A stretch of DNA of 35,814 nt from Anaerolineae bacterium (lineage in GTDB: Bacteria; Chloroflexota; Anaerolineae; 4572-78; J111). This document shows, one piece after another, positions 22,919-29,805 of this stretch. Both the position numbers and the translations under genes were made by a program. Position 1 is the first letter of the stretch, and each line of letters starts with the position of its first letter. A model generated the notes under the pieces. The model was not told the DNA's origin, ran no database searches, and saw nothing but the letters and a program-made list of their open reading frames with translations. Where the stretch lies: NCBI GenBank assembly GCA_016931895.1, contig JAFGDY010000171.1, positions 1-35,814 on the forward strand, in the 5' to 3' direction.

Positions 22919-23306
22919 GCAAGGCCAAGTTAGATGTGTCCTCGCCACGATTCTTGGTTCTTTATTTACACTGTCCCATAAGTTAAATAACAGGTTAACC
23001 TTTGCATTGTCAGGTAAAAAGGAGGTGGGTTGCAACATAAACCTGGTAACTGTTCATGCAACGCTGTCGAATAGTCAAATGTCCATCATCGCCTCTGGAC
23101 AACGATACCTCTGCCTTCTTCATCGCTCCCCAAGCGCAATTTCAACTCTGCTCAGGTGGATAGTTACCACACTGCGGATACCTGGGGCGCCGGCCGGCAA
23201 CCGGTTCAGGTAGCTTAATTATTTGACTGTGTCCAACCTTTTTTATTGACAACAAAATATCAAATCAACCCAGCGGCTTATCTTATTGAAAGGAGCATCA
23301 TTAACT
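22919..23306 (+). other. Long 5' leader of the CstA-family gene
   Basis: About 385 nt between the promoter and the transporter start. It contains an unused consensus-like ribosome-binding site, AAGGAGGT at 23019-23026, which could serve a ~14-codon leader frame from TTG 23030 to TAG 23074, and a possible ACCTG/CAGGT stem near 23180-23213. I do not recognise a riboswitch class. A longer frame crossing the region has no protein-family features. Confidence 0.45.
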
Positions 23307-25091
23307 ATGGCGTTAGGAATGATAATTATCGCTATTCTGGTAGCTATTTTTGGCTATCGTCTCTATGCAGTCAAGATCGACCGTGAAATCATTCAGGCCG
23401 ATCCCAAGCGGGCTACCCCGGCCACCATGTATAACGATGGAGTTGACTTTATGCCCGCCAAAGGCAGTGTTCTGTTTGGCTATCAGTTCAAATCCATTGC
23501 TGCCCTGGGGCCAATTGTGGGGCCGATTACGGCGGTGCAGTGGGGCTGGCTACCGTCCATTTTGTGGTTATTGTTTGGGGTATTGTTGATTGGGTGGGTG
23601 CAAGATTATGCGGCGGCTATGCTGGCCATGCGCAGCGACGGATTGACCCTGGGCGGTTTGAGTTACAAACTCATCTCCCCCCGCGCCCGGAACCTGTTGC
23701 TTGGTTTTTTATACTTTTATCTGCTCTTGATTATGGGCGCTTTTGGCGCAGTGGTAGCCGGATTGCTGGCCACCCCCACGGTGCCCATTGGGTTCATTAT
23801 CCTCACCCTGGCCGGGCTGCTGGCCGGTCAAATGACTTATCGCTGGCGGATGGATTTGCTCACGACCACGGTGGTAACAGTCCTGATTGCCCTGGTTGGC
23901 ATCTGGCTGGGCACATTGGCCTTTTCCACCAATATTGTCAAAGTGGTTAACTCCCTGGCCGGCGATGCCAACGGCGTGCTCTATAACACGCCTTATGGAC
24001 CAATGCAGTGGTCGGTGTGGTTGTGGGGGATTTTTGCCCTGTTCTTCTGTTACCTGGGTTCGGTTTTGCCCATCTGGCGTTTTGCCCAGCCGGTCAACTA
24101 CACTTCGTTCTGGTTTGTGGCTTTGGGTATTATTGGCGCTATTCTCGGTATCCTCATTGCCACCTTCACCGGCTCGGTGGGCACCTCTTTTCAAATTCCG
24201 GCCTATGTAACCTGGAATCAACCGGCGCTGGGCTGGTTGTGGCCCATCCTGTTTGTCACCATCTCTTGCGGCGCGGTATCGGGTTGGCATTCCCTGGTGT
24301 CTACTTCGGGTACGGCCCGCCAGCTTGAAAAAGAAACCGACGCCCTGCCGGTAGGGGCCGGGGCCATGTTCCTGGAGGTGGTGCTGGCGGTGCTGGCCGT
24401 AGTTTTTGCCGCCACGCTCATTGTCGCGCCCGACGGCAGCGTTCTTTACGATGCGGCCAATCTGTATCAACTCAAAATTGGGGCCGGGGGAGTGTTTGCC
24501 GCCGGCATGGCCCGCTTCCTGGCGGTGATTGGCATTCCGTCTGCCCTGGGCGGCGCCATCGGCGCAATTTTCCTGGCCGTGATGGCCCTGACCGTAATGC
24601 AACTGGTGCTACGTTTTATGCGCGTGGCCAGCGCCGAACTATTGGGCGACGCCCTGCCCATCATGAAGAACCCCCACATCGGCAGCATAGTGGCCCTGGG
24701 CTTCACCATGCTCATTTTGTGGACCGCTTTCTGGCAGCGCATTTGGGTGCTCTTTGGCGGGGCCAACCAGCTTTTTGCCGGTTTGGCTTTACTGCTTATC
24801 ACCATCTGGCTGGCCGAACAAGGTAAAAAATATGCCTGGACCTTCTGGCCGGCGGTTTTTATGTATGTCACCACCGTCGCCGCCCTGTTGGTTACGGCTT
24901 ACAAATCCTTCTTTGACGCCAAGGGGTTATTTGACCCCACGGCCGGCCTGGCCTTTCAAATTGGCAACGGCATTGCCGGCCTGATTGGTCTCTTCCTGGC
25001 CATTGCCGCGCTGTTTTTGGCCTGGGATGGGATCATCTCCTTTAACAGGGCCAGAAGCAAAGCGGCCGCAGCCCCGGCTGCTTCAGAATAA
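23307..25091 (+). CDS. cstA: CstA-family (carbon starvation protein A) membrane transporter
   Basis: A ~594-residue polytopic inner-membrane protein with well over a dozen hydrophobic segments. Family features: N-terminal IDREIIQADPKRATPA then TMYNDGVDFMPA, then KSIAALGPIVGPITAVQWGW and QDYAAAMLAMRSDG, all hallmarks of the CstA N-terminal domain; SCGAVSGWHSLVSTSGTARQ is the central conserved loop. Known members (CstA, BtsT) import peptides or pyruvate. The ATG at 23307 has GAAAGGAG ~11 nt upstream; an in-frame TTG at 23286 would precede that site. It is shorter than E. coli CstA (~700), as are many non-proteobacterial members. Substrate not assignable. Confidence 0.94.
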   Translation: MALGMIIIAILVAIFGYRLYAVKIDREIIQADPKRATPATMYNDGVDFMPAKGSVLFGYQFKSIAALGPIVGPITAVQWGWLPSILWLLFGVLLIGWVQDYAAAMLAMRSDGLTLGGLSYKLISPRARNLLLGFLYFYLLLIMGAFGAVVAGLLATPTVPIGFIILTLAGLLAGQMTYRWRMDLLTTTVVTVLIALVGIWLGTLAFSTNIVKVVNSLAGDANGVLYNTPYGPMQWSVWLWGIFALFFCYLGSVLPIWRFAQPVNYTSFWFVALGIIGAILGILIATFTGSVGTSFQIPAYVTWNQPALGWLWPILFVTISCGAVSGWHSLVSTSGTARQLEKETDALPVGAGAMFLEVVLAVLAVVFAATLIVAPDGSVLYDAANLYQLKIGAGGVFAAGMARFLAVIGIPSALGGAIGAIFLAVMALTVMQLVLRFMRVASAELLGDALPIMKNPHIGSIVALGFTMLILWTAFWQRIWVLFGGANQLFAGLALLLITIWLAEQGKKYAWTFWPAVFMYVTTVAALLVTAYKSFFDAKGLFDPTAGLAFQIGNGIAGLIGLFLAIAALFLAWDGIISFNRARSKAAAAPAASE

Positions 25092-25309: not shown

Positions 25310-25681
25310 ATGAAACGTTGCGCCATTCTTGAGGTGATAACGCCCCATGCCGGTATGCTCCACAACATGCGGGGGGGCCTGGCCTACACCGACCAAATAT
25401 TGACCGAAGCCGGTTTGAGCCAACCCGGCCAGGCGCTGGAAAATGGCGAGGAATCGCTCTGGCTGCGGCGCTGTTTGCACTACCTGGACCGGCGTTTTCA
25501 ACAATGGCTGCGCATCCAACTCATTGCCCCGCTCTCGTTGCCGGGTTTGTTCAGGGTTGTCCGCTACCGGATTAGAACTTATCCCACCTTTATTATAGGC
25601 GGCGAAACATTCACTGGCCAAGACCTGGCCGAATTGGAAGCCTTTATCCGGCGGCAAGCCGGCTCAATGGCCGAGGAGTGA
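25310..25681 (+). CDS. Small thioredoxin-fold-like hypothetical protein without CxxC
   Basis: A 123-residue protein from the ATG at 25310 (an in-frame TTG at 25274 would add 12 residues). The C-terminal half, YRIRTYPTFIIGGETFTGQD and then LAELEAFI, is the cis-Pro/beta-hairpin/last-helix pattern of thioredoxin-like proteins (TYPTFII with cis-Pro). The N-terminal half has only isolated Cys (residue 4 and a Cys near 55) and no CxxC, so a redox function of the usual kind is not supported. It follows the CstA-family gene by ~220 bp. No strong ribosome-binding site was seen. The family name is uncertain. Confidence 0.65.
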   Translation: MKRCAILEVITPHAGMLHNMRGGLAYTDQILTEAGLSQPGQALENGEESLWLRRCLHYLDRRFQQWLRIQLIAPLSLPGLFRVVRYRIRTYPTFIIGGETFTGQDLAELEAFIRRQAGSMAEE

Positions 25682-26204: not shown

Positions 26205-27191
26205 ATGTCGCTGGTAAAAATTTTTCAAGAACACCCCGAACGACGCTACATTATGTTTGGCGGCAAAGGCGGCCTGGGCAAAACCACGTTTTCGGCGGCG
26301 GCCGCTTACTATCTGGCCCAACAGGGCCACCGGGTACTGGTTTTTTCGGTTGACCCCCAGGCTTCGCTGTCGGATATTTTTCAACGAGACATCTTTGGTA
26401 AAGGCGCGGTGGAAATTATGCCCAATCTCTTTGCCCAAGAGATTGACGCCGACCAACGCATCAAAGCCTACCAGGAAGAAATTCGCCAAAAAATCTTTAA
26501 TATGTACGGCCTGGAAAAAATCCCCGATGAAATTGAAAACTACATCCAGGCCGCCGCCGCCGAACCGGCTATGGAAGAAAGCGCCATCTTTGACCAGGTG
26601 GTAGATATTGTGGTGGCCGCCGAGTACGACTATTACATTTACGACCTGGTGCCGCTGGGCCACGCCCTGTATTACCTGAGCATGGCCAGTGTGTACGACG
26701 AATGGATTGAAAAAATCACCAAACTCCGCGAAGAAATGCGCGAATACGAGCAAATGGCCGCCCGCATCAAACGCGACGAGGAAATCCAGGAAGACCTTAT
26801 CTTAAAAGAACTGCAAGACATCAAATACCGCATTCAAACCTCGTCCAGCATTCTTACCGACAAAGAAAAAACCGCCTTCTTTTTTGTTTGCGTGCCGGAA
26901 GAAATGATTTTGATTGACACGCAAAAAGCGGCAGAACTTTTTGCTAAGTTTGATGTGCCGTTGAGCGGTTACATTGTCAACCGGGTGTTGCCGGACGAAT
27001 TGATGCAGCAGCCCAACATCCCGGAATACCTGCGCAATCGCCACAAAATGCAGCAGGTGTACGCCGCCAAAATCAACCAACTATTTGGCAATGATGTTTT
27101 GGCCTGGATCCCAGAATTTGAGCGCGACATCACCGGCCTGCCGATGATTGAAAAAATGGCCCAGGTGATGTTTGGCAATGGGGCCGTTTAA
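26205..27191 (+). CDS. ArsA/Get3-family ATPase, first of a tandem pair
   Basis: A 328-residue P-loop ATPase. The deviant Walker A GGKGGLGKTT (19-28) has the signature Lys K21. Switch I, SVDPQASLSD, keeps the catalytic-type Asp D50. Switch II, which in ArsA/Get3 reads DTAPTGHT, is here DLVPLGHA (147-154). The later family segment FFFVCVPEEMILIDTQKAAE, then YIVNRVLPDE, and the terminal RNRHKMQQVY match Get3/ArsA strongly. An acidic coiled segment (~170-215) replaces the hydrophobic helices known from Get3. No paired Cys for a zinc site or arsenite binding is evident. AAGGAGAT precedes the ATG. The gap to the next ATPase is only 16 nt. Confidence 0.92.
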   Translation: MSLVKIFQEHPERRYIMFGGKGGLGKTTFSAAAAYYLAQQGHRVLVFSVDPQASLSDIFQRDIFGKGAVEIMPNLFAQEIDADQRIKAYQEEIRQKIFNMYGLEKIPDEIENYIQAAAAEPAMEESAIFDQVVDIVVAAEYDYYIYDLVPLGHALYYLSMASVYDEWIEKITKLREEMREYEQMAARIKRDEEIQEDLILKELQDIKYRIQTSSSILTDKEKTAFFFVCVPEEMILIDTQKAAELFAKFDVPLSGYIVNRVLPDELMQQPNIPEYLRNRHKMQQVYAAKINQLFGNDVLAWIPEFERDITGLPMIEKMAQVMFGNGAV

Positions 27192-27207
27192 ACAAAGGAG
27201 ATAAAGC

Positions 27208-28197
27208 ATGGCCTTGATTGATGTTAGCATGCAGCAATTTGTGGAAGCGCATCCTCACCTGAAATTTACCTTTTTTGGGGGCAAAGGCGGGGTGGGCAAA
27301 ACAGTGATGGCCGGCGCGGCTGCCATTGGTTTTGCCCGGCAGGGCAAAAAAACCCTGCTGGCTTCCACCAACCCCGTCCATAGCTTGAGCGGGTTGTTGG
27401 ACCAGAATGTTTTTGGCAAACAAACGCCGGTTAAGGGCGTACCCAATCTGATGGCGTACGAGATTGACACGCGAGAAACCATTGAACGCTCCAAGGTGGA
27501 GATCAAAGAAAAAATTGACTATTTTCTCAAATTTGCCGAAATCCGCACCAAAGCCGATGAGTTTGTCGAGTCGGCCACCATGAACCCGGCCTTTGAAGAG
27601 TCGGCCATGTTTGAGAACATGATTGACCTGATGTTCAAAGACGAGTACGAAGTTTACGTTTTTGATACCGCCCCCACGGCCAATGCGCGCCGCTTGTTGG
27701 GCATGTCGTCGGTATACTCCATGTGGGTCAACAAAATGATGGACAGCCGCAAAGAGGCCCAAAGTTTGCGAGAGCTGCTTTCTTATTCCAAAAAGAAAGA
27801 GCAAAAAGACCCCCTGATGGATTATCTGCTCAACTTCCGCGAGCGGATGCACCAGGCCAAAGAGTTGTTGACCGATCCCGAAAAAACAGCCTTTTTCTTT
27901 GTCACCCTGCCCGAAGCCTTGCCCATTGCCGTCATCCGCCGTTTCATCAATTGGTTTGATGAATTTGGCATTCCGGTGGGCGGCGTGGTGGTGAATATGT
28001 TAATTGACAAGACCAACGTGACCGAGGACTCGGCGGAATTTGTCAAGAACCGGGTGCAGATGCAAGATGGTTACATGCGGGAAATAGAAGAGGTTTTTAA
28101 CGGCATGGTGCGCGGGGTGGTGCCTTTATTTGACACCGAAGTGCGCGGGATTGAAATGTTGAACCGCACCACCAACGCTGTGTTTGGACAGGGGTAA
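27208..28197 (+). CDS. ArsA/Get3-family ATPase, second of a tandem pair
   Basis: A 329-residue paralogue of the preceding ATPase; they share MEESA/FEESA, the segment ending MSSVY/MASVY, and FFFVTLPEA. Walker A GGKGGVGKT (24-32) is complete with K26. Switch I reads STNPVHSLSG: Asn (N55) stands where the family has the catalytic Asp. Switch II is canonical, DTAPTANARRLL (153-164). FFFVTLPEALPIAVIRRFIN, then VVVNMLID, is the conserved C-terminal part. The Asp-to-Asn change should lower hydrolysis. The first ATPase has the opposite defect, so a mixed dimer with one good half from each is attractive (inference). AAAGGAGAT precedes the ATG. Confidence 0.92.
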   Translation: MALIDVSMQQFVEAHPHLKFTFFGGKGGVGKTVMAGAAAIGFARQGKKTLLASTNPVHSLSGLLDQNVFGKQTPVKGVPNLMAYEIDTRETIERSKVEIKEKIDYFLKFAEIRTKADEFVESATMNPAFEESAMFENMIDLMFKDEYEVYVFDTAPTANARRLLGMSSVYSMWVNKMMDSRKEAQSLRELLSYSKKKEQKDPLMDYLLNFRERMHQAKELLTDPEKTAFFFVTLPEALPIAVIRRFINWFDEFGIPVGGVVVNMLIDKTNVTEDSAEFVKNRVQMQDGYMREIEEVFNGMVRGVVPLFDTEVRGIEMLNRTTNAVFGQG

Positions 28198-28200
28198 TTT

Positions 28201-28686
28201 GTGGCCGGGGCCGAACTGGTTCGTCAGCACGAAATTGCCATCAACAACGTTCTGCTGGGCGCGTCTACCTTTATTTCCCTGGCCCTGCCCCCGGGCTGGG
28301 AAATTGTGATGGGCGCGGGCAGTCCGGAGGTAACGGCCAGCCACCGGCATAACGGCCGGCGCTGGGTGGCCACCGGCGACGCCTGGTATATTCTGCACCA
28401 CCCGGGCCGGCGCTGGGCTATGGAACTACGGCTAACGGCCAGTCTCCCCCCCCGCTCGCGCCGCGAGACTATTTTGCCAGAACTGACCGTGGCCGGGCAT
28501 CCGGCCAGCGTTACCTGGAAACAACGCAAGCGAGGCTTTATCAAACGCTGGCCGGTAACTTACGTTACGGTAGAGTTTTTCTGTCCACACACCAAGCGGC
28601 AGTTAAGGTTGGAATTCAGCGGCAGTCCCCTACCGGAAGCTTTTGAAGAAGTGCTGGCCGTGATAAAGTACGCTCGATGTCATTAG
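28201..28686 (+). CDS. Hypothetical protein in the ATPase operon
   Basis: A 161-residue protein that begins with GTG 4 nt after the second ATPase stop, so it is probably co-translated. Composition is beta-rich with many Trp/Arg (GRRWVATGDAWYILHHPGRR) and ends in a helix (LPEAFEEVLAVIKYARCH). It has no signal peptide or membrane segment. The pattern WYILHHPGRRWAMELRL suggests a compact beta-barrel or PH-like fold, but I cannot assign a family. Context points to a role with the ATPases. Its 3' end faces the minus-strand gene across a strong hairpin. Confidence 0.75.
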   Translation: MAGAELVRQHEIAINNVLLGASTFISLALPPGWEIVMGAGSPEVTASHRHNGRRWVATGDAWYILHHPGRRWAMELRLTASLPPRSRRETILPELTVAGHPASVTWKQRKRGFIKRWPVTYVTVEFFCPHTKRQLRLEFSGSPLPEAFEEVLAVIKYARCH

Positions 28687-28730: not shown

Positions 28731-29402
28731 TTATGTCAGGCCATCTTCTTTTGTATCCCCCTTGTTTTGCCCGCCCCCTGCCCGGCAAATGGCCTGAAAT
28801 AGCGCCGCCGCCTGGTTATTTTGTAAACCGGCCAGCCGGAGCATGATCAGAATATGCGGGTCCTGCGGCCCCCAGGAAAAACGGATCAGGTGGGAGCCGT
28901 AACTTTCTAAAAAGGGAGCGACCCATTCGATTTGTTGTTTGGCCGCCCCTCGTTGGGCAATAACCAAATGGTGAGGGCCATCGGTCAAAGTCCAGGGATT
29001 GTTTGGGTTTTGCGGCAAGGTTTTAATCTTGCGGCCGGCCGGGATGATTTCTAACTCGCCGCCCTGGGGATGGCGCAGGGTGCCCCGCAAGATGAGTTGG
29101 TCCCGTTTGCCGCGCAGCACGTCAACCAGCCAGAGCGGGGCCAGCTCGCGCGATTCAAGCAGATAGGTTAATTCCAGGCGGCGAAAGGGCGCGCGCGCGC
29201 GTTGCAGGCCAATCCGCGCTCCTGAACCGGACGAACCCAGCCAACTGGCTTGTACGCTCTTTTTATCGCCTAACACCTCCAAATCACGTTGGAGCCAGCG
29301 ATAGGTGCGCAGGCCAAAACGCCGGTTATAAATAGCCGCAAACAAATACCACACCACCAGCAAAATACCCAGGCCGGTGACGATATATTCTGGGGTTAGC
29401 AT
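28731..29402 (-). CDS. Membrane-anchored hypothetical protein
   Basis: A 223-residue protein from the ATG at 29402, chosen because GAGAGGATAAA precedes it; a longer frame to 29459 crosses the regulatory palindrome. One N-terminal membrane segment (YIVTGLGILLVVWYLFAAIY, ~5-24) is followed by a basic stop (NRRFGLRTYRW), which puts the rest in the cytoplasm. The body is Trp/Arg/Leu-rich with no motif I recognise, and includes FLESYGSHLIRFSWGPQDPH. It lies inside the ATPase neighbourhood between the two small paralogues but on the opposite strand, so it may be a membrane component of the same system. Confidence 0.75.
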   Translation of the reverse strand: MLTPEYIVTGLGILLVVWYLFAAIYNRRFGLRTYRWLQRDLEVLGDKKSVQASWLGSSGSGARIGLQRARAPFRRLELTYLLESRELAPLWLVDVLRGKRDQLILRGTLRHPQGGELEIIPAGRKIKTLPQNPNNPWTLTDGPHHLVIAQRGAAKQQIEWVAPFLESYGSHLIRFSWGPQDPHILIMLRLAGLQNNQAAALFQAICRAGGGQNKGDTKEDGLT

Positions 29403-29429
29403 TTTATCCTCTCCTGAAAATGGTAATTT

Positions 29430-29449
29430 GGGGGCACAATTTTGCCCCC
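29430..29449. promoter_or_regulatory. Palindrome between divergent genes
   Basis: GGGGGCA (29430-29436) and TGCCCCC (29443-29449) form a perfect inverted repeat around CAATTT in the 97-bp gap between the minus-strand membrane gene and the plus-strand small protein. It suits an operator that serves both genes, or a hairpin in either leader. Confidence 0.4.
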
Positions 29450-29499
29450 AGTCTAACAAAAGGGGGGGAACATGTCAAAGAATTGGAGGTAACATTAAC

Positions 29500-29805
29500 G
29501 TGGCGTCCGACCCGCCAAGGCCGGATACTTTATTGGCCCAACTGAAACAACGCTGGCTGGCCATTGACGATTGGCTGCGGGGTTTTATTTACGGCATGAC
29601 CTATTTTGAGCTGGAAAAGGAACTGCGCCAACAAAGGGCCGACCTGGAACACCTTTTTGTGCTGATCAGTTTTGGCGATTTGTTGGGCGTGCCAATTCTG
29701 CCGCCTTATTATTCGATGCGGCTGTTGCCCTACATTGTGCCCATGCTTAACAGTTGGCGCCGGCGCATGCTCCGCGAGAGAGATTTGACCGATTTGGCCG
29801 GTTGA
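29500..29805 (+). CDS. Small conserved protein of unknown function (paralogue 2 of the ATPase cluster)
   Basis: A 101-residue paralogue of the 92-residue protein at 25915. I chose the GTG at 29500, because GGAGGT sits 9 nt before it and the product then has the same length and layout as its paralogue; an open frame further upstream crosses the regulatory palindrome. Shared: FIYGM, EHLF, GDLLGVPILPPYYS, RLLPYIVP, RRMLRERDLTDLAG. The N-terminal ~30 residues differ (TLLAQLKQRWLAIDDWLRG). Hydrophobic central part as in paralogue 1. It leads into rsmE with a 31-nt gap, which may be only read-through. Confidence 0.85.
   Translation: MASDPPRPDTLLAQLKQRWLAIDDWLRGFIYGMTYFELEKELRQQRADLEHLFVLISFGDLLGVPILPPYYSMRLLPYIVPMLNSWRRRMLRERDLTDLAG

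Follow-up and report, generated by a model that had tools for sequence, protein, structure and literature searches.

Most ATPases of the ArsA family, Get3 among them, form homodimers or pseudo-dimers. Each P-loop of Get3 uses its own switches in cis and receives only the signature Lys in trans (PMC10248533), while the Get3 D57N variant still binds ATP but is held closed and fails to hydrolyse it (PMC12506534). In 2010, Castillo and Saier described ArsA homologues linked to CstA as well as two tandem pairs of them (Cluster 15), reported that in single-domain proteins Asn was the sole replacement for the Asp of the SXD motif, and proposed that ArsA energises CstA through CstX (PMC2963123). The CstA of Escherichia coli requires the small partner YbdD for pyruvate uptake (PMC5847655); YbdD ends in Cys-Cys, and the E. 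coli cstA operon contains no ArsA. Here we analysed a 35,814-nucleotide contig of an Anaerolineae bacterium (JAFGDY010000171.1, assembly GCA_016931895.1; "the window" hereafter), in which two adjacent ArsA/Get3-type ATPase genes, A and B, form an operon with the order CstA, C, A, B, where C encodes a small hydrophobic protein. The switches of A and B have diverged reciprocally, and the two proteins probably make up a two-part motor that is asymmetric, one of its ATP sites being active and the other locked.

By Pfam and NCBIfam profiles, A and B are full-length ArsA/Get3 ATPases, with 244 and 228 bits, respectively, against ArsA_ATPase (PF02374; cut-off 24.3) and 235 and 228 bits against TIGR00345 (cut-off 135). 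They are the sole ArsA/Get3 genes in their own genome (97% complete), both lie on the + strand with a gap of 16 bases, and a purine-rich stretch resembling a ribosome-binding site precedes each ATG (AAGGAGATAAACT for A, AAAGGAGATAAAGC for B). We confirmed the coordinates, frames and motifs given in a preliminary description of the locus, including a deviant Walker A with its signature Lys in both proteins. The motifs of A are GGKGGLGKTT (deviant Walker A, K21/K26), SVDPQASL (Switch I, D50) and DLVPLGHA (Switch II, D147); those of B are GGKGGVGKTV (K26/K31), STNPVHSL (N55) and DTAPTANA (D153). For both proteins the nearest solved structures by sequence were archaeal Get3 (3ug7, 3zq6), which was also the best fold match in the PDB for the AlphaFold model of B (predicted local distance difference test, pLDDT, 83.6). 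Both are single-domain proteins, reaching 98 and 113 bits vs 650 for the fused two-half ArsA (TIGR04291), and both scored below the cut-offs (400 and 521) of the BagA/BagB equivalog models NF053622 and NF053621 (A, 48.2 and 39.1 bits; B, 48.0 and 32.6 bits).

The switch pattern is conserved among orthologues and is not due to chance. B was carried by 37 of 301 Chloroflexota genomes, with A directly upstream in each unless the locus was cut by a contig edge, and D50 was found in 34/34 A and N55 in 37/37 B sequences; one additional letter stems from an open reading frame (ORF) that starts 3' of the P-loop. A wider set was built from B orthologues found in a scan of species-representative genomes, and a joint alignment, which also holds other ArsA/Get3 homologues, gave S[VT]DPQASL as Switch I of A (32/32) and S[TLF]NPVHSL as Switch I of B (31/31). 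The Switch I Asp that the family carries in each chain is therefore present throughout in A and replaced by Asn throughout in B, and it was found in all 59 other ArsA/Get3-type sequences (29 CstA-linked single ATPases and 30 other homologues). The family consensus of Switch II, DTAPTGH[TA], is found in neither chain: A reads D-L/M-x-P-x-GH across orthologues and B reads DTAPTAN, or DTAAVAN, DMAAVAN or DTAPVAH in some lineages, with the Asp present in both. The signature Lys and the Walker Lys are invariant in A and B (GKGG[LV]GKT). A retains the Asp of Switch I and, in Switch II, the Asp, the Pro and GH, and lacks the Switch I His (DPQAS) and the Switch II Thr, while B retains the Switch I His (NPVHS) and, in most lineages, TAPT, and lacks the Switch I Asp and mostly the Switch II GH. 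The reciprocity extends over several positions: besides the Asp it includes the His of Switch I and the GH of Switch II. The preliminary description was right about D50, the altered DLVPLGHA and N55; however, calling Switch II of A broken overstates the change because Asp, Pro and GH are kept, and calling that of B canonical overlooks DTAPTAN in place of the family's DTAPTGH.

These orthologues rule out a quirk of a single genome as the source of the pattern. In the wider set, B was found in bacterial records of Chloroflexi, Deltaproteobacteria (including Desulfobacterales and Syntrophaceae), Acidobacteria, Gemmatimonadetes, Acetobacteraceae and Symbiobacterium, and in archaeal records of Bathyarchaeota, Thermoproteota including Pyrobaculum, and Methanoperedens; single taxon labels are less sure than this overall spread because most records are metagenome bins. 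A lay upstream of B at these loci except where the contig starts at B. In bacteria and archaea alike, N55 and the altered Switch II of A were conserved in all orthologues that could be aligned and always co-occurred, and neither lone orthologues nor an intact Asp together with DTAPT in one protein were seen among the loci compared. General decay of tandem ArsA genes was ruled out as well, since two unrelated Chloroflexota tandem pairs (L051, L052) have both switches intact. A third Chloroflexota tandem pair (L056:1034-3020, G161:C555) has the Asp in both copies, and its Switch I is unusual (SIDLQPS and STDLQKS, with Leu for Pro).

In a maximum-likelihood tree of 122 sequences (quick search, with support from the SH-like approximate likelihood ratio test only), A formed one clade (support 99), B another (99) and A+B a joint clade (99) apart from all single-gene homologues, and the sequences of Symbiobacterium (L107) and Pyrobaculum (L116) grouped within the same A and B clades. 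A and B are thus sister clades that go back to a single duplication, which therefore predates the spread into bacteria and archaea. Within-A and within-B distances correlated (r 0.97 over 30 pairs, 0.68 among close pairs), which shows only shared inheritance because no control gene was included. Overall, the reciprocal loss noted earlier proved to be conserved, adjacent in every uncut locus and distributed over two sister clades, and an obligate A-B heterodimer would be the best reading of the pair. An alternative explanation, separate homodimers of A and B with different tasks, would agree with the usual architecture of Get3 and the ArsA family, but appears very improbable: a B homodimer would carry two Asn sites and be dead for hydrolysis, no lone A or B was seen in the loci examined, the single duplication and the matched A/B divergence speak against it, and the mycobacterial BagA/BagB pair provides a precedent for two chains.

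The preliminary description had further expected one composite working mode from the two proteins. Pooling the switches rebuilds no single site because they act in cis, and the established Get3 structures agree on switches in cis and the signature Lys in trans, so that two unequal sites are expected instead. Since the change equivalent to that in B traps yeast Get3 in the ATP-bound state, it is more likely that A hydrolyses while B holds ATP. In the mechanism that we propose, one ArsA/Get3-type ATPase gene would have duplicated and the copies would then have degenerated reciprocally, yielding sister subunits of an obligate heterodimer with the ArsA/Get3 fold. ATP would be hydrolysed at the A site, composed of the P-loop, Asp50 and Asp147 of A and the signature Lys of B in trans, and would be bound and held at the B site, whose Asn55 is equivalent to yeast Get3 D57N; an A site with all catalytic residues and a B site holding ATP are what the behaviour of D57N and the cis switches suggest. 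Similar to ABC (ATP-binding cassette) transporters with one degenerate site, the half-locked dimer might deliver a single power stroke per cycle. Its target would be the upstream-encoded CstA-type carrier, to which C would link it at the membrane, in line with what Castillo and Saier proposed for CstA, CstX and ArsA (PMC2963123), and it would energise or gate the import of pyruvate, of peptides or of some similar substrate. We infer the physical heterodimer, the site asymmetry, the coupling to CstA and the substrate, whereas the data show the sequence pattern, its conservation, the single duplication, the operon and the co-occurrence.

The arrangement described for Cluster 15, two adjacent ArsA-type genes with CstA and a small CstX-type gene, was found in the window (Table 1) and in orthologous loci. 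A CstA-family carrier is encoded upstream of the pair in most loci, and C adjoins nearly every pair, often in two or three copies. Across the 301 genomes, the co-occurrence of CstA, C and B is nearly perfect, with counts of 35/2/3/261 for B and CstA (Fisher p 8e-40; CstA in 35/37 B genomes) and 36/1/1/263 for B and C (Fisher p 3e-44); these p values are inflated by genome relatedness, and the matches span about 30 genera. Among the apparent exceptions, G137 has C and CstA and no detected B, and its contig ends inside gene A; G002 (73% complete) and G233 have no detected CstA; and two Chloroflexota genomes (G089:C34 and G170:C8; L173, L174) have CstA with no A, B or C nearby. Antisense ORF clusters overlapping A, B and CstA were excluded from the neighbourhood analysis. 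Arsenic resistance was rejected as a function, as there is no fused ArsA and neither arsB nor arsR was seen among the recurrent neighbours. A thioredoxin-like protein is encoded at 12 pair loci and at 0 single-gene loci; the copy in the window lacks the CxxC motif that is kept in 19/19 compared relatives from other Chloroflexota pair loci. The protein encoded on the - strand downstream of the pair, which recurs next to other pair loci in the opposite orientation, has a hydropathy peak of 2.25, resembles the described CstY (PMC2963123) in size and topology, and is possibly a CstY-like protein.

Table 1 Features of the window around the A/B gene pair (aa, amino acids; HMM, hidden Markov model).
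Feature	Position	Strand	Remark
CstA-family carrier (carbon starvation / pyruvate transporter family)	23286..25091	+	PF02554, 369 bits
Thioredoxin-like protein	25310..25681	+	HMM match 1.7e-14 to 19 relatives
Gene C, small hydrophobic protein, 92 aa	25915..26193	+	Distantly related to cory-CC-star (CstX-like)
Gene A, ArsA/Get3-type ATPase, 328 aa	26205..27191	+	Proposed hydrolysing subunit
Gene B, ArsA/Get3-type ATPase, 329 aa	27208..28197	+	Proposed ATP-holding subunit
161 aa protein 3' of B	28201..28686	+	Relatives near the pair in a few other loci
Protein of ~240 aa, one N-terminal hydrophobic segment	28731..29459	-	HMM match 1.8e-71 to recurrent pair neighbours
Second C paralogue (within ORF 29377-29805)	29503..29805	+	Similarity to C

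C ends 11 bases upstream of A and has no C-terminal Cys-Cys, its terminus being DALA. No Pfam family matches it, and it reached 34.8 bits against cory-CC-star (NF041419), below the cut-off of 80; comparison of a C profile with the cory-CC-star set by hhalign gave a probability of 96.5%, which makes C a distant homologue of cory-CC-star/CstX. Its AlphaFold model is poor (pLDDT 62; predicted template modelling score, pTM, 0.28). In many loci (e.g. L069:5647-8512) the pair is flanked by two or three divergent paralogues of C, and some of these carry an additional acidic tail (EHDYHLEGL, EEFDLIEM). Such a small hydrophobic protein, encoded nearly always beside A-B, together with archaeal Get3 as the closest solved structure by both sequence and fold, could suggest a membrane-insertion factor of the Get3 kind that delivers C or CstA to the membrane and does not energise transport. 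We consider this unlikely because the CXXC zinc site of strict Get3/TRC40 is missing from 63/63 A and B sequences in the joint alignment, and because the hydrophobic stretch of C is central, unlike a tail anchor, with a hydropathy peak of only 1.6. The TRC40-type insert of the two proteins leans towards charged residues, with a mean hydropathy of -0.87 and -0.98 vs -0.52 in non-CstA homologues, a small difference and a weak point against this alternative.

In Bacillota, Pseudomonadota and haloarchaea, the corresponding operon encodes CstA, a cory-CC-star protein and one ATPase with intact switches. This single-ATPase operon is widespread (L121-L170, e.g. L121:3936-6921), occurring in Bacillaceae, Halomonadaceae, Pseudomonadaceae and haloarchaea. 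A terminal Cys-Cys, as in E. coli YbdD, is present in the small protein at 28/30 single-gene loci vs 0/45 copies at pair loci. A broader and more tentative picture, to which we give a probability well short of even, would be an ancient ATP-driven CstA-type uptake system of bacteria and archaea, in which a Get3-fold heterodimer, asymmetric in that one site is live and the other permanently locked with ATP, powers a secondary carrier through C, the small partner having lost its Cys-Cys tail and a thioredoxin-like protein having been added in many loci.

The combination of reciprocal degeneration, an A-B heterodimer, a live A site with an ATP-holding B site and coupling to CstA via C is in our view somewhat better than an even bet. 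Several points weigh against it. The altered Switch II of A could make A inactive too; the single duplication means that the co-occurring losses are one retained event and not many independent ones; the association with CstA is one of genome context only, with CstA elsewhere or on another contig in some genomes; and E. coli CstA works without an ArsA in its operon, so that the coupling could be regulatory. The switch changes in both chains and the functioning of E. coli CstA with YbdD and no ArsA in its operon would also fit a nucleotide-binding complex with a regulatory or scaffolding role, which gates CstA by sensing ATP/ADP, with neither subunit hydrolysing ATP efficiently. That explanation is quite improbable, however, since all residues expected for catalysis (K21, K26, D50 and D147) are kept in A without exception, whereas they would be lost by drift if the enzyme were dead.

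Compared to the known systems, the heterodimer with a live A site and an ATP-holding B site would be new in part. The preliminary description had suggested a new branch of the family; CstA-linked ArsA proteins and two such tandem pairs have been known since 2010, described without the switch pattern or a heterodimer. The Cluster 15 account covers two organisms only, does not assign the Asn to one paralogue, and includes no reciprocal change in Switch II and no proposal of asymmetry (PMC2963123). We found no later paper on ArsA with CstX in the literature searched, which omits most subscription journals. The single CstA-linked ArsA system of Bacillota, Halomonadaceae and haloarchaea has the identical order of CstA, small protein and ATPase; unlike the pair, it has one ATPase, with intact STDPAH and DTAPTGH.

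The view in the preliminary description that known ArsA/Get3 proteins are either homodimers or fused does not hold, as BagA/BagB of Mycobacterium tuberculosis (Rv3679/Rv3680; PDB 6BS3-6BS5) are neighbouring paralogues with the Get3 fold whose joint structure contains them as two separate chains, with complementary losses of their own. Read from the PDB chains, which were identified by sequence match, BagA has GKGG and EVEGRQG instead of an SxDP Switch I, and BagB has GAGG, without the signature Lys, and TIDPAK. Get3-fold hetero-pairs with complementary losses are therefore already known; the present pair differs in its weak similarity to them (A, 48 and 39 bits) and in the residues lost. Yeast Get3 shares the fold and the deviant Walker A, and B naturally bears the residue of the ATP-trapped D57N mutant, whereas yeast Get3 is a homodimer that has a CXXC zinc site and serves tail-anchored clients. 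The proposed logic of one hydrolysing and one holding site resembles that of heterodimeric ABC transporters in which one nucleotide-binding site is degenerate, but these belong to an unrelated fold and family. If our reading is correct, nature has fixed in one subunit, beside a live partner, the change used to freeze Get3 with ATP, providing a natural system in which, for the Get3/ArsA fold, the binding of ATP can be told apart from its hydrolysis. It would also become possible to test, on CstA, the old proposal that transporters besides ArsB are energised by ArsA-type ATPases. Relative to these systems, three points stand out as new: the strict invariance of the D57N equivalent in B, the fact that in bacteria and archaea alike it is paired with an A that looks catalytic, and the existence of CstA operons of this kind that have a single, intact ATPase gene instead.
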